NCBI GenBank assembly: GCA_946186575.1
Contig: CAMHNO010000004.1
Location: forward strand, 55,739-119,738
Direction of reading: 5' to 3'
From: an uncultured Prevotellaceae bacterium
GTDB lineage: Bacteria; Bacteroidota; Bacteroidia; Bacteroidales; Muribaculaceae
DNA length: 64,000 nt
The notes beneath the pieces were generated by a model. The model saw nothing but the letters and a program-made list of their open reading frames with translations, was not told where the DNA came from and did no database searches. Shown here in pieces: positions 50,089 through 64,000 of this stretch. Made by a program: the position numbers and the translations under genes. Position 1 is the first letter of the stretch. Every line of letters starts with the position of its first letter.

Positions 50089-50096
50089 CAAAGTTA
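50089..50096 (-). promoter_or_regulatory. -7 box of asd
   Basis: Minus-strand TAACTTTG, 40 bases before the ATG. Confidence 0.55.
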
Positions 50097-51140
50097 TATT
50101 TTTTTTGTGTTAATAGCAACTTTCATGCCACAAATTAAATGAGTAAAGTCGTTAAGTTCATGGCATTGATTTCTTGTGAGGCCATTTTGTTTCTCTTCTT
50201 GCTCTGGTGTTATCAGTAATAGGGTTCCATTAGCACAGGCGTCAAAAAGTTTGCCTGGTGGTTTCTCGATGTTTGAGTATTTCTGTTTTGTTGGGATGAT
50301 GATTGGTAATCCTGCATTAAGGGCGCGGTTTTTTATAGTTTTCTCTCCTGGGCTAATCCCTGGAGTCACTATCACATAGCCTTGCTCGGCTAAATTGAGA
50401 ATTTCTTTCCACTTTTCTTCAATTTGCTGCTCTGTCAGTTTTCTTGAGCATTGCACTTGCACTTTCAAGGGGTAGTTGAGCAAGAAATGGTTACCGATGG
50501 TTGTCGCTTTTGTATAACCAATCATCAGTTCAGAATGAGTGGTGAAAAAATCAGGGTGCTGGCGTTTGATCCACAAACGCCTGGGGTTGTCGTGCACATA
50601 GTTAATCATGTGTTGCAGTTGTCCTCTTCCCCTAAGAATGCGGTCGTGATAGCCTTTTTTCCATAGAGGTAGCGATAATGGCTGCTGTGCGACCATTGTC
50701 GGTGTGGGCAGAGGCCGTGCCTCTGCCTTCGCCAACAACCGCCTCACTGCACGGTTGCAGCCAATTTTAAACCCGTTCACAATTTGCCCAAGGTGCTGTT
50801 GAATATCCTCGGTGACGTAGAGAATGCCATGGAAGTGGTCAGGCATCAGCTGATAGGCAATAACCTGCACTTTAGGGTAGTAGTGCTGTGTGTCGCGCCA
50901 TGCCAGTATCACATTTCGCCCTAACTCGCTTGGCTCAACCCATGGTAGCTCATGCCACTCATCGCTGTTATGCAAAGTGCCCAAAACTGCTTTACGTTGC
51001 TCGGTGCACAGTGTTATCATGTAGATGCCTTTGCCGCGGTAGTCATGCCCCACCATTCGCTGCAACTTGCCGTGTTGAAACTGATGTTCAGGATGTTGTT
51101 TGATCCACTCCAGCCGTTGGGTTAATCGCTTTTCGTCCAT
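50094..51140 (-). CDS. REP-associated (Y1/HUH) transposase with extra C-terminal domain
   Basis: 348 aa from the ATG at 51140; the earlier in-frame TTG lies in the TAACTTTG promoter box. Residues about 25-200 are a Y1-transposase domain: GIYMITLCTEQR, HUH motif QLMPDHFHGIL (His 102/104), and the nucleophile candidate Tyr 181 in MINYVHDNPRR. The C-terminal ~125 residues are an additional Rossmann-like domain (GYVIVTPGISPGEKTIKNRAL, then AGLPIIIP and LFDACANGTLLLITP) recalling SLOG/DprA-type nucleotide-binding folds. No terminal repeats were found, so it looks like a domesticated single-copy RAYT. Confidence 0.82.
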   Translation of the reverse strand: MDEKRLTQRLEWIKQHPEHQFQHGKLQRMVGHDYRGKGIYMITLCTEQRKAVLGTLHNSDEWHELPWVEPSELGRNVILAWRDTQHYYPKVQVIAYQLMPDHFHGILYVTEDIQQHLGQIVNGFKIGCNRAVRRLLAKAEARPLPTPTMVAQQPLSLPLWKKGYHDRILRGRGQLQHMINYVHDNPRRLWIKRQHPDFFTTHSELMIGYTKATTIGNHFLLNYPLKVQVQCSRKLTEQQIEEKWKEILNLAEQGYVIVTPGISPGEKTIKNRALNAGLPIIIPTKQKYSNIEKPPGKLFDACANGTLLLITPEQEEKQNGLTRNQCHELNDFTHLICGMKVAINTKKI

Positions 51141-51155
51141 GTGTTTATTTTGTTG

Positions 51156-51163
51156 CAAAGTTA
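51156..51163 (-). promoter_or_regulatory. -7 box of the RAYT gene
   Basis: Minus-strand TAACTTTG, 16 bases before the ATG at 51140. Confidence 0.55.
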
Positions 51164-53399: not shown

Positions 53400-56341
53400 G
53401 AAAACTATTATCCTCACTTCTTTTTGTGCTGATGGCGATGAGTGCCGGTGCAACTGACTACTTTGCGATGTTCATAGGTGGCGTTCAGCTCAATACCCTT
53501 AACATTGCTTCGTCGTCAACCTTGACAAGCCAACTGCAGAGCAATGGCGTGCTCCAGAGTGGCACCGTTGAGTTTCAGCATACCTGGCAAGGCGATAATC
53601 ACACAGGAAAACTTATCCTCACCAATGCAGTGTTGAGTTATAATAAAAACACCGGTGTCATTTGGGCGGGCGTGAATGGTAGCTTAGGTTCTTACATCGA
53701 ACTTGACCAATTAGAGATAGTTTTGAATGGTACCAATAGCGTCACAAACACTAATTCGGGTGGGTCGGCAATCTACATGGGCGGCACTGCTTGTCATGAC
53801 TTCGCCCGCCTTGAATTTAGTGGCAATGGCACTCTTGAGCTGCACGGCGGCAGCAGCACCGGTGCCGGCATCACAGCAGCCAATCGCAGTGGAGTGTCGG
53901 TGACCACTCTAACCGAGAGTTGTACGCCAACCATCATTTGTGACGGATTCACCGGTGTGCGCAGCCTGGGTAGTACCACATTTCAATACATGCTCGGCCA
54001 TGGCACGTTTAAAGCCACAGGGACAGTTTATGCTTGCATGCATGAAGCTATCGCGGCAATGAACCTAAGTAACAAGCGAAAAGTGATAGATCCCGAAAAT
54101 GGTCATATAGGTGAAGATGATTACATGTACACAATGTGTAATAGTAGTGGCAATTCGGTAAAAACCTTTACAGTTGGTCCTGAGCAATATCCCCTGTATG
54201 TGTGCGGTGTTCAGGTCGATGCCGACAATGCGTCGAAGCTCACCACTATACTGACAAACTTAGGCTATCTAAAGAGTGGCACAGTGCAATACCTTCCTGA
54301 TAACAAAGATCTCGAATTCTATAATGCCAATATAGAATATAATATTGGTCCTTATTATTCAGCGATAGTGAGAAATGGAAATCACAACCTTGATGGCAGC
54401 GTATATGCACCTGGAATTAATAATCTTGTGGTTACTTTTTCAGGCAACAACACATTAGGTGGCGATACAAGGGTTGGAATCGATAACAACAAGGCCAACA
54501 TGAAGTTGCGGCTCTATAATGGTGCTCACTTGACCATTAATACTCGCAATGGCATTTATCACAACATAGCGATGCTTTATGCCGGCAATGGCAGTGGCAA
54601 TTACACATTCACCATTACCAATGGTAACATAAACCCTGGTCCTAACGATCCTGCCCTGCTCACTATCAATGCCAGCAATGGTTATGGCTTCTATGGTGAC
54701 TTTGGCCAGATTAATTATGAGTCGGGAGTGACAAAATTCTCAGGAACTCAAGGTGCTATAAGTTTTGGCAGTGGCGCTGGTGATGATGTGCCCCCAATAT
54801 ATTATAGATTCACATCGGGTGGCGACAACTATGGTTTCCGCCACGGTGAGATAATTAGACAAGCTGGTTACTGGTATTACGTTTGCGCTGCTGATAACAG
54901 CGAAGCCACAAGTGCCGAGATAGGCTGGGTGGGCAACACATACGGTATCAAGATATTAGGTGCGTCAATCACCGACTATCTGGTGAGCCACATGAGTGAG
55001 CTGTTTGGCAACAACTCGTTTGCTAATGCCATAAAATTTGATGGTTATAAGACACTGACGTTCGACAGCTTCGGTAGCAACATAGTGAATTGCACCAACA
55101 CAGCTGTTCCACTAATCGAGAGCAATATCGACGGTCTTAAAATCAAGTCGACAGGCACCAATCTGAACAATGTGGGTTATGCCGGAACGGTCTTGAAGCT
55201 CAATGCTCCCGCTACCTATGAACCCGATGCTGCCACCCGCACCCTGCGCCTGCGCTCATTGCAGGGAGCTGCCGTGGTGCTCACGTGCGACAACGCACTC
55301 ACTGTTAAGAACGGCATCCTTGATGCTCAAGGAGCGACCTATGGCATCATGGGCTCAAAGGTGACAAGCCCCACAACAGTTTATAATGGCACATTTAACA
55401 TGGAAGGCGGAAAGGTGCTATCGATAGGTAACACAGCCAGCGTAGCCCAACTCAAGGCTTTCAACCTTAACAATTATGCCATCGTTGCGCCCGAGGGAGC
55501 AACATGGAGCTCAACTGCTCATGGTGTTGTTGACACTAATGGCAACCTGGTGGCCGGCACCACGGTAGAAGTTGGTCCTAAGATCTACGACTTGAAAGTG
55601 GGCGGTGTGCAGGTTACCAGCGCCAATTGTGGCGACATCCTGGGCGACGGCACCGTGACCTACGACCCTGTGGGCAATAAGCTGATTCTTAACAATGTGA
55701 ATTACAACGAGAGCTTTAACGACTATTTTATAAAAAATGAAATTGACGGCCTGCAGATAGTGGTCAATGGCGAGAATTACATTGGTCCCAATGTGCTTAA
55801 AGGAATTAGCGTTGGCAACAATGCTAAGACCACCATCACCGGCGGTGGGTCGCTCACGATAGATGTGGGTCAGACCGGCGTGTACACTTGCAGCTTGCTG
55901 ACAATCACTGGCGGAGTTCAGCTGAGCTCCAAAGGCACGTACGCTTACTCGGCCTATAACTATGCCGGCATAACGATATCAAATGCCATGACTCGCGTGA
56001 AAGGTTATGGCACAAAATCCTGCCTTTATAATGTGAATGGTCTCACACTGAATGATGGCTTGCAAATTGTGGAACCGGAAGGCGCCCACATGGAAGGCTG
56101 GACAATGATGGATGCCGATGGTAACATTCTCAAGAACACATGGCTTGTGATAGCGAAGTCGGCAGCCATCCCTGGCGATGTGGATGGCGACGGCAGCGTG
56201 ACCAGTGCCGACATCACTACGCTCTACAACTACTTGCTCAATGGCGACAGTAGCAGCCTGGTGAATGGCGATCAGGATGGTGATGGCAGCATCACCAGTG
56301 GCGATGTCACAGCGGTTTATAACATCTTGCTGGGAAATTGA
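53396..56341 (+). CDS. Modular secreted surface protein with dockerin tag
   Basis: 981 aa, signal peptide MRKLLSSLLFVLMAMSAGA. Built from repeats of a carbohydrate-binding-like beta-helix module, each opening with a 'Y.[L/M].[I/V]GGVQ[L/V]' strand and a GTV.[Y/F] plus L.L.NA turn, starting about residues 22, 263 and 731. The last module (residues about 747-926) is encoded by DNA identical to that in the next gene. The tail is a dockerin (IPGDVDGDGSVTSADITTLYNYLL, NGDQDGDGSITSGDVTAVYNILL). Probably a cell-surface glycan-binding or adhesive protein; no catalytic motif. Confidence 0.8.
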   Translation: MRKLLSSLLFVLMAMSAGATDYFAMFIGGVQLNTLNIASSSTLTSQLQSNGVLQSGTVEFQHTWQGDNHTGKLILTNAVLSYNKNTGVIWAGVNGSLGSYIELDQLEIVLNGTNSVTNTNSGGSAIYMGGTACHDFARLEFSGNGTLELHGGSSTGAGITAANRSGVSVTTLTESCTPTIICDGFTGVRSLGSTTFQYMLGHGTFKATGTVYACMHEAIAAMNLSNKRKVIDPENGHIGEDDYMYTMCNSSGNSVKTFTVGPEQYPLYVCGVQVDADNASKLTTILTNLGYLKSGTVQYLPDNKDLEFYNANIEYNIGPYYSAIVRNGNHNLDGSVYAPGINNLVVTFSGNNTLGGDTRVGIDNNKANMKLRLYNGAHLTINTRNGIYHNIAMLYAGNGSGNYTFTITNGNINPGPNDPALLTINASNGYGFYGDFGQINYESGVTKFSGTQGAISFGSGAGDDVPPIYYRFTSGGDNYGFRHGEIIRQAGYWYYVCAADNSEATSAEIGWVGNTYGIKILGASITDYLVSHMSELFGNNSFANAIKFDGYKTLTFDSFGSNIVNCTNTAVPLIESNIDGLKIKSTGTNLNNVGYAGTVLKLNAPATYEPDAATRTLRLRSLQGAAVVLTCDNALTVKNGILDAQGATYGIMGSKVTSPTTVYNGTFNMEGGKVLSIGNTASVAQLKAFNLNNYAIVAPEGATWSSTAHGVVDTNGNLVAGTTVEVGPKIYDLKVGGVQVTSANCGDILGDGTVTYDPVGNKLILNNVNYNESFNDYFIKNEIDGLQIVVNGENYIGPNVLKGISVGNNAKTTITGGGSLTIDVGQTGVYTCSLLTITGGVQLSSKGTYAYSAYNYAGITISNAMTRVKGYGTKSCLYNVNGLTLNDGLQIVEPEGAHMEGWTMMDADGNILKNTWLVIAKSAAIPGDVDGDGSVTSADITTLYNYLLNGDSSSLVNGDQDGDGSITSGDVTAVYNILLGN
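55634..56172 (+). repeat. 539-bp direct repeat, copy 1
   Basis: No difference by eye from 58567-59105. It covers the last beta-helix module and the linker up to the start of the dockerin tag. Identity stops at one third-base change (CCT/CCC). Confidence 0.92.
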
Positions 56342-56427: not shown

Positions 56428-59274
56428 ATGAAAAGATTTTTAATGTTGATAGTTGCTGTGATGGCGCTCGTGGTCGCACGTGGTGCCGAGCAGGGCTATT
56501 TCAAGTTTGAAGTGAGTAACGGGCAAGCCGTGATTACCGGTTTGACAACCGCTGCGCAGTCGATGAACCTGTCGACGCTCGAGATCCCCGGTTTCATCCA
56601 TTACAATGGTCTGGTGTGGCCCACTCGAATCAGGACGTCGGCCTTTCAAGGCTGCAAGGCCAGTGATATAATCATCCACTACGGCTGCCAGCGCATCGAC
56701 GACTACGCCTTCGCAAGCTGCGTCAACCTGAGTCAGGTGCGCATTCCCAGCAGCGTGACCTACCTGGGTGCCGGATTAGTTTTGAATTCAGGCAAGAACA
56801 GCAATTCCATTCTCGTTGCAATGGCAGGCCAGGAGCCGCTTGATGCGTCAAGCATGCCAAGCAGTGCCTTTATTGGCTCGTTGTCGACGAATGGTGTGAA
56901 GCTCGGGCTCTCGACTCAGGCTGCATATAATGCTTTCACACAAAATTCCTTGATACAAGGCATGAGCTTCAATGATATATTCATTAGTGCTTTTGCCAAT
57001 GACTATGAGGACAATAACGGCTCGACCTACGTTGTGGATCGTCCTGCTATATATAATGTTCAGCAGGGAAATTTATGGCTTGTGAACTCCACCAGTGAAG
57101 ATGTGATTGTGTGCCCCGATGAAATTCATCTTGACGATTACGGTGCAAGCGATAATCCCGTTTCCTATGTGTGCAGAAGGGTTGCCGACTATGCTTTTTA
57201 TCAAAGTAATGCAATCAAATCATTTACATGGACAGGAGTGTCTGGTAAATATCTCATAGGTGAATATGTGTGTACTGGTTCAACATCATTGAGAAAGGTT
57301 ACGATAGACTGTAACGCGGTTGCTAAAGGCGCATTTAATAATTCAGGCGTTAGTGAGATTAATTTATTGGAAGGAGTTATAACGCTAATGAATTGCTTTG
57401 TAGGTTGCAGTTCACGTTCTTTGAAGTCGGTGAAATTTCCCAAGTCATTGAATAGCATTTATAACTCGTTTATAGGATGTCGCTATATTAAAAAATTTGA
57501 ATCGGACTGCGAGGAATTTGAGCGTGTCTATTTCGTTTATAAAGACTGTCTATATGAAAAACGATATGATGCTGATGGTAATAATATAGCCGTGCTTTGT
57601 CGTGTGCCACCAAGCAAAGAAATGCTTATTTATAATCCGATTCATCCCAAAACACGTATTATTGGCTCCTACGCTTATTATGATCACATGTATTACGATG
57701 TGTTGGATATTCCCTACGGTGTCACTACTATAGAGGATTATGCATTTGAGGAAGCCTGTGTGGGCGCTATCCACATCCCCAGCAGTGTGACAACATTTGG
57801 CAATAATATTTTTAAAACAAGCCGTATCATGGCGCTGAACTTTGGCGCTGCAGTGCCCCCTCTGCCTTATAGTGTGATGTTAAAGCTCATAGAGTGCCAA
57901 AACACATTACACTATAGCATGTATATCTTCTGCCCAGTAGAATCGTTAAACTCTTATACTCAGATATTTAACTATGGTGGAAACAAAGTGTATATTGGTG
58001 GATATGATGTGTATGACACATCTAATAATGTGAGCTATCGCATTAAAGATGACAACACAGCCACATTGTGCATGGGAACCTATGATAATCCTAACATTCC
58101 CACTTATGTTTCAATTCAATATACTAACTATGAATATGTGGCCAGAGATTATTTGTATGATTGGGAAGATGGCATCTACACAAGGGTTTTGAAATTTAAA
58201 GAGACGATAAAAGTCAATGAAAAGGACTATGAGCTTGACGAAGTTTCGCCTTCGGCATTGGCTGGCTTGAGATTGCTCTCGGGCGTTACATTACCATCAA
58301 CAGTTAATAAAATAGGTGATTATGCTATGGCCAACTTGCCAACGCTACAGACTGTAACAGCCAAAATGACGACTTTGCCAGAGCTTGGCCTAAACGTGTG
58401 GGGCGGAACTACCACTCCCAACACAGTTTCGCTATATGTTCCTGCAGGCATGAAGGCAACCTATGCCGCTGCCGATCAATGGAAGGATTTTGGCCATATC
58501 TATGAGGGAAATGTATCCTACGACCTCTATGTGAAAGGCATTCAGGTGACGAGCAGCAACTGCGATGACATCCTGGGCGACGGCACCGTGACCTACGACC
58601 CTGTGGGCAATAAGCTGATTCTTAACAATGTGAATTACAACGAGAGCTTTAACGACTATTTTATAAAAAATGAAATTGACGGCCTGCAGATAGTGGTCAA
58701 TGGCGAGAATTACATTGGTCCCAATGTGCTTAAAGGAATTAGCGTTGGCAACAATGCTAAGACCACCATCACCGGCGGTGGGTCGCTCACGATAGATGTG
58801 GGTCAGACCGGCGTGTACACTTGCAGCTTGCTGACAATCACTGGCGGAGTTCAGCTGAGCTCCAAAGGCACGTACGCTTACTCGGCCTATAACTATGCCG
58901 GCATAACGATATCAAATGCCATGACTCGCGTGAAAGGTTATGGCACAAAATCCTGCCTTTATAATGTGAATGGTCTCACACTGAATGATGGCTTGCAAAT
59001 TGTGGAACCGGAAGGCGCCCACATGGAAGGCTGGACAATGATGGATGCCGATGGTAACATTCTCAAGAACACATGGCTTGTGATAGCGAAGTCGGCAGCC
59101 ATCCCCGGCGATGTGGATGGCGACGGTCATGTGAGCAGTGTTGACGTGACAGCGCTCTACAACTACCTGCTCAACAACGACGATAGCGCCATCGTCAATG
59201 GCGACCAGGATGGCGACGGTCACATCTCGAGTGTGGATGTGACGGCGGTTTACAACATACTGCTGGGAAACTAA
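56428..59274 (+). CDS. BspA-like leucine-rich-repeat surface protein with dockerin tag
   Basis: 948 aa, signal peptide MKRFLMLIVAVMALVVARGA. BspA/LRR_5 repeats occur in several blocks (IRTSAFQGCKASDIIIHYGCQRIDDYAFASCVNLSQVRIPSSVTYLG, DIPYGVTTIEDYAFEEACVGAIHIPSSVTTFG, LPSTVNKIGDYAMANLPTLQTV). A beta-helix module at residues about 705-893 is almost entirely encoded by the 539-bp repeat. The dockerin (IPGDVDGDGHVSSVDVTALYNYLL, DQDGDGHISSVDVTAVYNILL) differs from that of the upstream gene. BspA-type LRRs mediate binding to host proteins in Treponema and Tannerella. It follows by 86 bp. Confidence 0.85.
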   Translation: MKRFLMLIVAVMALVVARGAEQGYFKFEVSNGQAVITGLTTAAQSMNLSTLEIPGFIHYNGLVWPTRIRTSAFQGCKASDIIIHYGCQRIDDYAFASCVNLSQVRIPSSVTYLGAGLVLNSGKNSNSILVAMAGQEPLDASSMPSSAFIGSLSTNGVKLGLSTQAAYNAFTQNSLIQGMSFNDIFISAFANDYEDNNGSTYVVDRPAIYNVQQGNLWLVNSTSEDVIVCPDEIHLDDYGASDNPVSYVCRRVADYAFYQSNAIKSFTWTGVSGKYLIGEYVCTGSTSLRKVTIDCNAVAKGAFNNSGVSEINLLEGVITLMNCFVGCSSRSLKSVKFPKSLNSIYNSFIGCRYIKKFESDCEEFERVYFVYKDCLYEKRYDADGNNIAVLCRVPPSKEMLIYNPIHPKTRIIGSYAYYDHMYYDVLDIPYGVTTIEDYAFEEACVGAIHIPSSVTTFGNNIFKTSRIMALNFGAAVPPLPYSVMLKLIECQNTLHYSMYIFCPVESLNSYTQIFNYGGNKVYIGGYDVYDTSNNVSYRIKDDNTATLCMGTYDNPNIPTYVSIQYTNYEYVARDYLYDWEDGIYTRVLKFKETIKVNEKDYELDEVSPSALAGLRLLSGVTLPSTVNKIGDYAMANLPTLQTVTAKMTTLPELGLNVWGGTTTPNTVSLYVPAGMKATYAAADQWKDFGHIYEGNVSYDLYVKGIQVTSSNCDDILGDGTVTYDPVGNKLILNNVNYNESFNDYFIKNEIDGLQIVVNGENYIGPNVLKGISVGNNAKTTITGGGSLTIDVGQTGVYTCSLLTITGGVQLSSKGTYAYSAYNYAGITISNAMTRVKGYGTKSCLYNVNGLTLNDGLQIVEPEGAHMEGWTMMDADGNILKNTWLVIAKSAAIPGDVDGDGHVSSVDVTALYNYLLNNDDSAIVNGDQDGDGHISSVDVTAVYNILLGN
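58567..59105 (+). repeat. 539-bp direct repeat, copy 2
   Basis: Same sequence as 55634-56172, 2,933 bp downstream in the same orientation and frame. Confidence 0.92.
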
Positions 59275-59973: not shown

Positions 59974-60582
59974 ATGAAAAAGTTATTATTAATGTTTGCA
60001 GTTGCAGGGTTAATCGCATCTTGCACAGGAAATGGAACCACCAGCGGCAGCGGCAGCGCCAGTGCCAGCGGTGACAAGAAAGAAGAGGCTAAGACCGAGG
60101 CCACCAAGGAGAAAAAGGATACCGTAAAGGGTCCAGTGACCATCGAGAACCCCTCTTGGTCGGTCGACGTGCCCGAGGGTTGGTATGTTGTTAGCGAGAG
60201 TGCTGGCAGGGATCAGAAGGCATCTTCTTATCTTCGCATTCAGCCATTGGTACGTCCCAAGGGCATGATAGGCCTGGTTTCGGCAACAGTTAAGTCTTAT
60301 CCATTTAAGAGCAACACCGTTGAGCAAGATCAAGAGACGTTCAAGAGCGCGTTCAAGGTTGAGAATGCCAAGATTGAGAAAGAGACAATAGGTGGCATGG
60401 AGTTCCAGAAGATTGTTAAGCCAGCCGGCAGTGGCGGTGGCATCATCTCTCACATGACAGCTCCATTAAAGCCCGAAGGCAACATCTCGATCGAGGTTCA
60501 GGGCTATGAGCTCACCGACCCCGTTATCGCCGCTATGCTCAAGAGCTTCAAGATGAAGCCAGCCGATCCCGCGGCGAAGTAA
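59974..60582 (+). CDS. Lipoprotein, paralogue 2
   Basis: 202 aa. Lipobox LIASC. A Gly/Ser then Lys/Glu-rich linker (SASGDKKEEAKTEATKEKKD) leads to a domain with NPSWSVDVPEGWYV, SYPFKSNTVEQDQETF, IGGMEFQKIV and AAMLKSFKMKPADPAAK. It aligns along its length with the lipoprotein at 63217, from which a 2-kb dockerin-gene segment separates it. The W..D.PEGW pattern is reminiscent of PsbP/DUF1795-like domains, but that is weak. Confidence 0.72.
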   Translation: MKKLLLMFAVAGLIASCTGNGTTSGSGSASASGDKKEEAKTEATKEKKDTVKGPVTIENPSWSVDVPEGWYVVSESAGRDQKASSYLRIQPLVRPKGMIGLVSATVKSYPFKSNTVEQDQETFKSAFKVENAKIEKETIGGMEFQKIVKPAGSGGGIISHMTAPLKPEGNISIEVQGYELTDPVIAAMLKSFKMKPADPAAK

Positions 60583-60841: not shown

Positions 60842-60910
60842 ATGAAAAAATTTTTACTACTTTTTATGACGGCGATGGCGCTGCTAGGGTGTGCCCTATT
60901 CTTTTTTTAG
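60842..60910 (+). pseudogene. Truncated signal-peptide ORF
   Basis: MKKFLLLFMTAMALLGCALFFF and stop: a typical export leader preceded by a TAATTTTG promoter box, cut off at residue 15 where the 173-bp inverted repeat begins (60886). The frame then runs into the hairpin sequence. Reads as the 5' end of a dockerin-type surface gene whose body was lost. Confidence 0.65.
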
Positions 60911-61058
60911 GCACACCCTTAATGTCCTCCATTCACTTTTCGGGGAGAAGATTGTCAATTATAAATCATGAATTAATCAATTACCTAACAAGATGTTATA
61001 GACCGCTGTCACATCGCCACAGGTGATGCTACCATCGTTATCCTGATCGCCATTCACC
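60886..61058 (-). repeat. Left 173-bp inverted repeat, carrying an inverted dockerin 3' end
   Basis: Reverse complement of 62758-62930 with five differences. It contains the hairpin AGGGTGTGCC/GGCACACCCT (60886-60919) and, on the minus strand, the coding tail VNGDQDNDGSITCGDVTAVYNILLGN plus stop (60981-61058). No upstream gene body exists for this tail. Confidence 0.9.
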
Positions 61059-61294
61059 TGTTGTAATGTCTTGACGCGTTCTTGGTGTCGTTTTAACGTT
61101 AGTTAGACGAAATTAATTAGTTATAATCAGCATGTTAGCAATTGATAGCGTGTCTTAGATGGTGATGCGGTTCATCATTACCAGATCACTTTTTAGCGTA
61201 TTGTGGTTTTTTGTTGTATCAAATTACGAATATATTTTGTTTGTGTGATAAAAAATGCTAATTTTGCACATTATTTATAGAAATATTTAACGAT
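61059..61294 (+). repeat. Direct repeat carrying a promoter, copy 1
   Basis: From TGTTGTAATGTCTTGACGCG to the leader of the 511-aa gene, highly similar to 62931-63166. The first ~170 bases show only a few changes (for example GTGTCGTT against GTGTTGTT). Contains the promoter at 61236-61266. Confidence 0.88.
61236..61266 (+). promoter_or_regulatory. Promoter of the 511-aa dockerin gene
   Basis: TTTG, 19 bases, TAATTTTG; the ATG lies 37 bases downstream. Confidence 0.7.
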
Positions 61295-61303
61295 AATAAA
61301 AGA

Positions 61304-62839
61304 ATGAAGAAACTCTTTACTTTATTGATAATTGCAATGGCAGTGTTTAGCGTTAATGCTGCTGGAGTTATGATTTGTGGAAAGGTCTACAATGAAAATA
61401 GTTATCAGCTTATAAATCAAGAACTCACTGAGGCTGGCTATTTGAAGAGCGGTACGGTGGCCTATGATCCTGTGAACTACAAATTGACACTCAACAATGC
61501 CGATATATTGTGCGATAAAACTATTATTGAGACCTATCAGCTTGAGGACCTTGAGATAGAGGTGATAGGCAATTGCACACTCAAGACTAAAAAAGAAGGT
61601 AATGAGAATGTCGACAATGGACTCAGCTGTATTAATGTCACAGCTGCTAGTACCAAGCCAATGACTATTGATTTCACTGGCAACGGATCGCTGAAAATGA
61701 CCTCCACCAATATTGCTTTCTTTGCTTTCAACCGATATAGCGTGCAATACAAGTTTGATGGTCCCGATGTTACCATTAAATCGGCCCGTGGCATTTGGTC
61801 AACCAGTGTTTATCGTGTGGCTTATAAAATGAATGCTGGCTCGTTGAAGATTTGGAGCGACTATGGAGCCATCGACCATGCTTTCAATATGGATAATGGT
61901 GTGTATGGCACTATGTCGTTTGCCCCAGGCATTAAAATCTTGGAGCCTTATGACGGCTACTGGGATTGTGTATTGCCAAAGTATGGTTATGCCCAGATAA
62001 GACACTTTGCTGGTGAGGCCAAGACGGTGAAGATAGGCAGCACCTATGACCTCAAGGTTGGCGGAGTGCAAGTCACCACCCAAAACTGCAACGACATCCT
62101 GGGCGATGGCAATGTCTCTTACTTTCAGACAAATAACTTCTTGACTTTGAACAATGCCACAATTGAGGCCGATGGTCAGGTCATCGTCAGCGACATCCAG
62201 TGGCTGAAAATCAGGATTGCTGGTAACAACCGTCTCATCACACATCACAACACCTATGGTATAGATTTAACTGAGTGTGATGGCGTGGCAATTGAAGGCG
62301 CTGGCAATGGAGTGGAGAATGACGTCTTGTCGATGGAATCGACTGTCAATCAAATGGGCATAGGTTACTTCACCCATAAGAAAGGCGAACCTGCTCAAAC
62401 CTACATCCGTAACTGCTCTATCACAATGCCAGGAGGTGAGATTCAAAACGAGGACAATGACTGCGCGCTCACTATAGAGAACGCATATATCCACTTAGCC
62501 GATGGTTACATCAGCACACCACCAGCGCTCACCCTCAACAATTGCTACATCAGTAAGCCCGTGGGAGGGCATATTGATAATTACGGCAATATTTGTGCCG
62601 ACGGCAGCAACGGCATGTACTGGGGGGAGATTGAAATTATGCCTGGCACACCTCCCAATCCAGCCGTTCCTGGCGATGTGGATGGTGATGGCAGCGTGAC
62701 CAGCGGTGACATTACGGCGCTCTACAACTACTTGCTCAATGGCGATAGCAGCAGTCTGGTGAATGGCGATCAGGATAACGACGGTAGCATCACCAGTGGC
62801 GATGTGACAGCGGTCTATAACATCTTGTTAGGTAATTGA
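61304..62839 (+). CDS. Dockerin-tagged beta-helix surface protein in an inverted-repeat-bounded segment
   Basis: 511 aa with a signal peptide (MKKLFTLLIIAMAVFSVNA). Two modules homologous to those of the 981-aa protein: AGVMICGKVYNENSYQLINQ...GYLKSGTVAYDPVNYKLTLNNADI, and YDLKVGGVQVTTQNCNDILGDGNVSYFQTNNFLTLNNATI. Then comes the dockerin VPGDVDGDGSVTSGDITALYNYLL plus NGDQDNDGSITSGDVTAVYNILL. The second dockerin half lies in the right 173-bp inverted repeat, so inversion of the segment would restore the same ending from the left copy. Probably exported; function unknown. Confidence 0.82.
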   Translation: MKKLFTLLIIAMAVFSVNAAGVMICGKVYNENSYQLINQELTEAGYLKSGTVAYDPVNYKLTLNNADILCDKTIIETYQLEDLEIEVIGNCTLKTKKEGNENVDNGLSCINVTAASTKPMTIDFTGNGSLKMTSTNIAFFAFNRYSVQYKFDGPDVTIKSARGIWSTSVYRVAYKMNAGSLKIWSDYGAIDHAFNMDNGVYGTMSFAPGIKILEPYDGYWDCVLPKYGYAQIRHFAGEAKTVKIGSTYDLKVGGVQVTTQNCNDILGDGNVSYFQTNNFLTLNNATIEADGQVIVSDIQWLKIRIAGNNRLITHHNTYGIDLTECDGVAIEGAGNGVENDVLSMESTVNQMGIGYFTHKKGEPAQTYIRNCSITMPGGEIQNEDNDCALTIENAYIHLADGYISTPPALTLNNCYISKPVGGHIDNYGNICADGSNGMYWGEIEIMPGTPPNPAVPGDVDGDGSVTSGDITALYNYLLNGDSSSLVNGDQDNDGSITSGDVTAVYNILLGN

Positions 62840-62930
62840 TTAATTCATGATTTGTAATTGACAATCTTCTCCCCGAAGAGTGAATGGAGAACATTAAGGG
62901 TGTGCCTAAAAAAAGAATAGGGCACACCCT
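62758..62930 (+). repeat. Right 173-bp inverted repeat
   Basis: Encodes the last 26 codons of the dockerin tag, then a short AT-rich stretch and the hairpin at 62896-62931. About 97% identical to the reverse complement of 60886-61058. Confidence 0.9.
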
Positions 62931-62931
62931 T
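62896..62931 (+). terminator. Hairpin terminator within the right inverted repeat
   Basis: AAGGGTGTGCC and GGCACACCCTT, an 11-bp perfect stem with a 14-base A-rich loop. Confidence 0.75.
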
Positions 62932-63166
62932 GTTGTAATGTCTTGACGCGTTCTTGGTGTTGTTTTAACGTTAGTTAGACGAAATTAATTAGTTATAATC
63001 AGCATGTTAGCAATTGATAGCGTGTCTTAGATGGTGATGCGGTTCATCATTACCAGATCACTTTTTAGCGTATTGTAGTTTTTTGTTGTATCAAATTGCA
63101 AATTTATTTTGTTTGTATAATAAAAAGTGTTAATTTTGCACATTGTTTATGGAAATACTTAACGAT
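62931..63166 (+). repeat. Direct repeat carrying a promoter, copy 2
   Basis: Copy of 61059-61294 placed before the third lipoprotein gene; identity declines near the 3' end. Confidence 0.88.
63108..63138 (+). promoter_or_regulatory. Promoter of lipoprotein paralogue 3
   Basis: TTTG, 19 bases, TAATTTTG, inside the second direct repeat; leader of about 75 bases. Confidence 0.68.
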
Positions 63167-63216
63167 TATAGATTTTAAAGTCAATTTTTATTTTTAATTC
63201 TAAATTCAGTTCTGTT

Positions 63217-63807
63217 ATGAAGAAATTATTTTTAATGTTAGCAGTGGCAGGGCTCATGGCTTCCTGCGCAGGCAATGGGAACACCAGCGGCAGTGCAAGT
63301 GGTGAAAAAAAAGACAGTACTAAAACCGAAGAAACCAAAGAGAAGAAAGACACTCTCAAGGGTCCAGCAACTATCGACAATCCAACCTGGTCAGTAGAAC
63401 TGCCCGATGGATGGCAGGCTCCTTCGGTTCGTCCTGGCGATAGCCAAAAGAGTTCTTCTTATTGCGAGCTCAAGCCTATTGTTGTTCCCGATGGATTTAA
63501 AGGTCCTGTTGGCGTGAGAATCAGCTCTTATCCTTACAAGAGCAATACTGTTGAGAAAGATATGGAATCTTTCTTCAATATCTACAAAGATGCCAAGAAA
63601 GATGGAGAAGTAGAAATCGGTGGAGTGAAGTTCCAGAGAGCTGTGAAGGTTTATCCTGATGGTAATACTGTAACAAATCTTTGCGCTCCTCTCAATCCTG
63701 AAGGCAGTGTGAGCATAAAACTCTCGCACATGAAGTATGATGAGGAAATCATTCAAACCATCCTCAAGTCTTTCAAGCTCAAGCCATCCGAGCCTGCTGC
63801 AAAGTAA
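63217..63807 (+). CDS. Lipoprotein, paralogue 3
   Basis: 196 aa, lipobox LMASC, then a Lys/Glu/Thr-rich linker (EKKDSTKTEETKEKKDTLKG) and the domain NPTWSVELPDGWQAP, SYPYKSNTVEKDMESF, IGGVKFQRAV, ending LKSFKLKPSEPAAK. It aligns with the lipoprotein at 59974 from leader to last residue. The two were probably adjacent tandem copies before the dockerin-gene segment arrived. Function unknown. Confidence 0.75.
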   Translation: MKKLFLMLAVAGLMASCAGNGNTSGSASGEKKDSTKTEETKEKKDTLKGPATIDNPTWSVELPDGWQAPSVRPGDSQKSSSYCELKPIVVPDGFKGPVGVRISSYPYKSNTVEKDMESFFNIYKDAKKDGEVEIGGVKFQRAVKVYPDGNTVTNLCAPLNPEGSVSIKLSHMKYDEEIIQTILKSFKLKPSEPAAK

Positions 63808-63989: not shown

Positions 63990-64000
63990 CCAATAAAAGT

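Follow-up and report, generated by a model that had tools for sequence, protein, structure and literature searches.

In Bacteroidales, long inverted repeats that flank a surface-protein gene readily suggest phase variation. Inversions of the sap and slp S-layer genes involve inverted repeats that overlap the surface-protein genes, with expression alternating between genes or gene bodies. For Bacteroidales themselves, one study describes inversions that affect promoters or occur within genes (PMC10939037), and for Ureaplasma another describes inversions of the UU172 element that alternate expression between genes or bodies (PMC3047005). Template switching at inverted repeats, with inversion of the spacer, is described for yeast by Abraham and Hazkani-Covo (2021, PMC8604942).

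Here we study a window of 64,000 nucleotides, the whole stretch of DNA that was analysed, which comes from a gut bacterium, probably of the rumen. A first-pass annotation had read a dockerin-tagged gene near its right-hand end as a possible invertible cassette. The flanking repeat turned out to be real, and nothing positive for the cassette emerged beyond the repeat itself. We favour, with a probability of about two in three for the scenario as a whole, the reading that the two arms do not bound an invertible cassette but are a static scar of a rearrangement at the edge of a hairpin. The fallback offered by the annotation, in which a template switch at the hairpin left a frozen by-product, comes close to this reading. 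If it is right, the case shows how local copying can produce a repeat that passes the filter for phase variation.

The repeats around the dockerin gene

Gene G (61304..62839, plus strand) encodes a 511-aa protein whose body is conserved across species and which ends in a type I dockerin tag (62672..62839, plus strand; Pfam PF00404, 37.9 bits against a cut-off of 22.9). Solved dockerins match this tag, and the Dockerin_1 match places G among the type I dockerin proteins. The annotation had reported 173-bp inverted repeats with five mismatches around the gene, and its coordinates were exactly reproduced. The left arm (60886..61058, minus strand) and the right arm (62758..62930, plus strand) are 97% complementary over 173 nt, share exact runs of 58 and 40 nt, and are separated by 1699 nt. 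A search for further copies, which the annotation had proposed, was run on the source genome (G000, a draft of 2.7 Mb in 80 contigs). It returned two full-length copies only (E 2.8e-86 and 2.4e-79) and three shorter matches to dockerin tags (74-85%). The E value of the second copy places the inverted repeat far beyond chance.

Each arm consists of the end of the tag, the 3' UTR, and a hairpin of 34 nt, and the left arm is reversed relative to the right one. The annotation was thus correct about the last 26 codons of the dockerin tag and about the hairpin. The latter is a putative terminator at most: no T-run follows the right copy, and the terminator scan covered only loops shorter than the one in this hairpin. 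The hairpin closes the right arm at 62897..62930 (DNA fold of -11.4 kcal/mol, z -5.5, for the stretch 62890-62930) and lies at 60886..60919 in the left arm, where its loop is in the reversed orientation. Its exact pattern has no third site in the 2.7-Mb genome, and we rejected an origin from REP/RAYT elements because the pattern occurs at two places only. A RAYT-like (REP-associated-transposase-like) gene is present at 50094-51158 (minus strand), with a score below the curated cut-off. At four related loci (L031, L033, L037, and L039), apparent fragments of the start of such a gene, read by eye, lie just upstream of the G homologs. Between positions 60000 and 63400, no known RNA matched in Rfam up to E = 1.

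The annotation had overlooked a 240-nt direct repeat, hereafter DR, which immediately follows each arm (61059..61298 and 62931..63170, both on the plus strand). The two copies have the same orientation and are 95% identical, with 13 mismatches over 240 nt. Each carries a promoter-like site, TTTG-N19-TAnnTTTG, which we take to be the Bacteroidetes-type promoter consensus. The site in the left copy (61236-61266) lies upstream of G and the one in the right copy (63108-63138) precedes a small lipoprotein gene (63217..63807, plus strand); the window holds 6 matches to the consensus against 1.1 expected. Gene G is therefore enclosed by two copies of a 413-bp unit, made of tag end, hairpin, and promoter repeat, in which the left arm alone is reversed. 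Both DR copies also contain a terminator-like hairpin upstream of the promoter-like site (61160-61183 and 63032-63055), and the three such hairpins of the region are not above the 1.9 expected by chance.

The divergence between the DR copies is uneven. The last part (61205-61298 and 63077-63170) differs at 12 of 94 positions and the preceding part at 1 of 146 (Fisher p 7e-5), which points to more than one event or to later conversion. The two parts thus have different histories or constraints. The arms differ from each other at 5 of 173 positions, no closer a match than that over the initial 146 nt of DR, and the inverted repeat thus gives no sign of a special homogenisation.

DR occurs twice in the source genome. 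Elsewhere, a sample of 397 genomes of the family, in each of which 2 candidates were scored, gave only short pieces of it, and one exact pattern drawn from it had no match in IMG/VR. The whole 413-nt query was found in the source genome only, among 101 genomes of the genus with at most 6 candidates scored in each.

Three weaker inverted pairs in the window are each formed by dockerin tags on opposite strands (69-85%). Separate inverted arms of at least 100 nt at 90% identity or more are absent from 242 kb of related loci. These contain one inverted case within a repeat array at locus L028 (53-76 nt, 83-86%) and, at other loci, self-palindromes of 56-202 nt at 69-92%. The same search over 160 kb of the source genome (20 stretches around dockerin and lipoprotein matches) also gave no such arms, and three self-palindromic matches.

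To the left of the left arm lies another feature missing from the first-pass annotation. A signal-peptide leader, possibly of a lipoprotein (MKKFLLLFMTAMALL..., 60842..60885, plus strand), runs into the arm and is cut off at its start, and the rest of its putative gene, which we call X, is missing. Of 100 other genomes of the genus, 20 had partial matches to the leader, mostly to leader sequences, and none yielded a native continuation of X. A 10-nt microhomology between X and the arm, AGGGTGTGCC, was dropped as a candidate because those bases belong to the arm.

Origin of the reversed arm

The longest piece of DR in the family sample tells which arm was probably reversed. It is found in a genome of the same genus, G051, as part of an element that resembles the 3' UTR and the hairpin stem at 78% over 78 nt. 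This element leads on into TTGTTGTAATG, with which DR begins, and stands after a different gene, an ORF of 478 codons. As it runs into the start of DR in the way the right copy does, the right-hand order is probably the native one and the left-hand order derived. The breakpoint of the reversed copy falls at the edge of the hairpin: both in G051 and in the right copy, the stem is succeeded by the very bases with which the left DR starts. No microhomology is visible at the junction of arm and DR.

In the scenario we favour, the 413-bp unit would first have come to be present twice, on either side of G. Its upstream copy would have been part of X, a second tagged gene that would survive in its signal-peptide leader alone. 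The 173-bp arm of the left copy would then have changed its orientation, breaking at the base of the hairpin. This could have been an inversion of the left arm in place, or a stall of replication at the hairpin followed by copying of the opposite strand. The present state would be a fixed one.

When the left arm alone was re-inverted by computation, the junction between hairpin and DR was restored and the leader of X came into frame with the tag end. The restored junction comes in part by construction, as the right copy has arm and DR side by side, and the frame match has a chance of 1 in 3 by itself, so the exercise is only suggestive. It would suggest, rather than prove, that the arm and not the cassette was reversed. 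The five differences between the arms are not one-sided. Judged against the 981-aa dockerin gene of the window and, by eye, against the G051 element, the left arm looks derived at three of them and the right arm at two, and the left arm is therefore not simply a decaying copy.

These two-sided differences also speak for an invertible cassette, in which recombination between the arms, either homologous and at low frequency or driven by a recombinase acting in trans, would flip G with its promoter. The same is true of the identity of the arms, their long exact runs, and their distance of 1.7 kb. The arithmetic of the annotation was sound as well: inverted on paper, the segment 61059-62757 gives an intact 511-codon ORF with S498C as the sole change. 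We nevertheless consider this reading unlikely. As the annotation had anticipated, the promoter would travel with the gene, the promoter-like site being inside the segment, and a flip would thus not switch G on or off. There is a single gene body between the arms and no second one to alternate with. Read from the sequence, inversion would alter neither expression nor, save for S498C, the protein. The cysteine, which sits in the tail now unused, would fall in a column where none of 72 sampled tags has one (S 44, A 20, G 5, T 2, V 1). A search for tyrosine recombinases, suggested in the first pass, gave five matches to PF00589 in the genome, which is to the credit of the cassette, but they are on contigs C2, C12, C26, C28, and C34 and none is on C4, the contig of the window, which ends near the element. 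The proposed comparison with relatives did not help the cassette either, as the arms are absent from 18 related loci and, at the seven of these where a lipoprotein gene closely follows the homolog, the two genes always share a strand; the assembly shows one orientation only. A flip that acts as a switch was rejected on account of the internal promoter-like site, the single body, and the off-contig recombinase matches. Rare inversion between the arms by homologous recombination may still occur.

It is much less probable still that the reversed arm was produced in the assembly, by a fold-back or a chimeric join of reads. The draft state of the genome would favour this, as would the end of the contig at window position 64000, which is 1.07 kb past the right arm and had gone unmentioned in the annotation. 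The contig of a relative (G019) starts inside its own G gene, and assembly may thus be difficult in this region. A fold-back, however, would yield identical copies, whereas here the arms differ at 5 sites and the DR copies at 13.

We give hardly any weight to a mobile unit, in which G and the arms, as 173-bp terminal inverted repeats, would have inserted into gene X. The inverted, hairpin-bearing ends, the leader truncated on the left, and a body conserved across species would fit such a unit. Yet the only long ORF inside is G itself, shorter overlapping antisense ORFs aside, and no target duplication was seen by eye. The right end continues into DR like the G051 element, the hairpin occurs at two places only, and the homologs of G at the 18 related loci are without such ends.

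Related loci and the exchange of gene bodies

A scan of one genome per species gave the 18 loci with homologs of G. Their records are metagenome-assembled genomes labelled Muribaculaceae, Prevotellaceae, Porphyromonadaceae, or Bacteroidales, of ruminant origin wherever a source is named. Sequence upstream of the matched gene start is included in 13 of them, and five (L040, L041, L042, L043, and L045) hold or match only the 3' part of G. The non-coding part of the arm, DR, and the region of X were matched in none of the 18 loci, which agrees with a derived state of the arrangement in the window. A relative of the small lipoprotein gene closely follows G at 7 of the 18 loci, on the same strand in all seven, at about 45-100 bp as against 377 bp in the window. 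The gene asd shares a contig with G in the window, in G049, and in G084, standing a few kb upstream each time, and is on another contig in G019 and G046. At L028, a match to the 3' tail of a lipoprotein gene (L028:9534-9623) comes directly after the G homolog, as if G had replaced the body of that gene.

Conservation along G is uneven. In blocks of 25 codons, seven homologs (L028-L033 and L037) match G at 85-100% identity over codons 26-425, except for one L031 block at 77%, and the tag blocks (codons 451-511) of the same homologs go down to 39-89%; these ranges leave out the more distant L034-L036, L038, and L039. Five relatives have both G and IleRS. In four of them the dS of the body is 0.16-0.21 against 0.83-1.30 for IleRS, a single core gene and hence a thin yardstick. 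In the fifth (L039) the body itself is divergent, with a dS of 1.99, and the pattern is thus not universal. The tag is saturated or nearly so, with a dS of about 1.1 in two of the five and none computable in the other three. The nearest relative by IleRS among ten genomes searched, G019 (98%), has a G fragment that is yet only 93% identical.

Inside the window, the neighbouring 981- and 948-aa dockerin genes share 539 identical bp (55634..56172, plus strand, equal to 58567-59105), which makes the cluster look prone to rearrangement. The identical run stops a single base short of the tag. Beyond that base come 20 further identical ones, and identity then drops to about 70-80%. Copying thus seems to be freer for bodies than for tags. 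We advance only tentatively, as a possibility we hold somewhat below even, the broader idea that the arms are a visible scar of a continuing, genus-wide exchange, in which bodies of dockerin proteins are copied between genes and species and the loci keep their tag, 3' end, and promoter. Under this idea, G would exemplify exchange between species and the 981- and 948-aa genes exchange inside a genome. A limited literature search on dockerins and gene conversion found nothing relevant, and the wider literature may differ.

We compared tags within and between five genomes. From 79 fetched regions, which were high-scoring ones, we set aside 5 without a tag and dropped 8 misread ones; with five tags of the window and one of L114, this left 72 of 407 dockerin matches. 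The nearest sampled tag came from the same genome for 31 of the 72, against 21.6% expected, a value reached by 1 of 2000 label shuffles. For the tag of G itself, the nearest sampled tag came from the same genome in two of the five genomes only (G000 and G046); in G049, G080, and G019 its nearest sampled tags were in other genomes. That the recipient's tag is kept is therefore only partly supported.

Dockerins are abundant in these genomes. There are 81 Dockerin_1 matches in the source genome, and 71-121 per genome when seven others of the genus are included, some of these counts being lower bounds. Cohesins gave one marginal match in the source genome and none in three of the eight genomes. 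The surroundings of the arms matter more than the arms themselves: there are many dockerins and few recognisable cohesins, and bodies appear to be mobile and tags to remain in place. Such genomes would be a natural experiment in the modular assembly of surface proteins.

Comparison with known systems

Gene G carries a C-terminal tag like the type I dockerin tags (PF00404) of cellulosomes. Unlike in cellulosomes, recognisable cohesins are few or absent here, and the body of G matches no family in Pfam or NCBIfam. The locus differs from the sap and slp S-layer inversions by its single body between the arms. It shares with the UU172 element (PMC3047005) inverted repeats that overlap surface-protein genes, and departs from it by the same single body. 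With the invertible promoters and intragenic inversions of PMC10939037, it has in common a host among Bacteroidales and inverted repeats beside a surface-protein gene, but here the promoter would stay with the gene and the contig is without a tyrosine-recombinase match. The closest likeness to the scenario we favour is template switching as set out in PMC8604942: a reversed copy of nearby sequence, and a breakpoint at the arm, of about 10 nt, of an inverted repeat, here a hairpin. The yeast spacers differ by 2-5 bp, whereas the reversed stretch of this bacterium measures 173 bp and its mechanism is a proposed one; and here the upstream gene would have been reduced to its leader.
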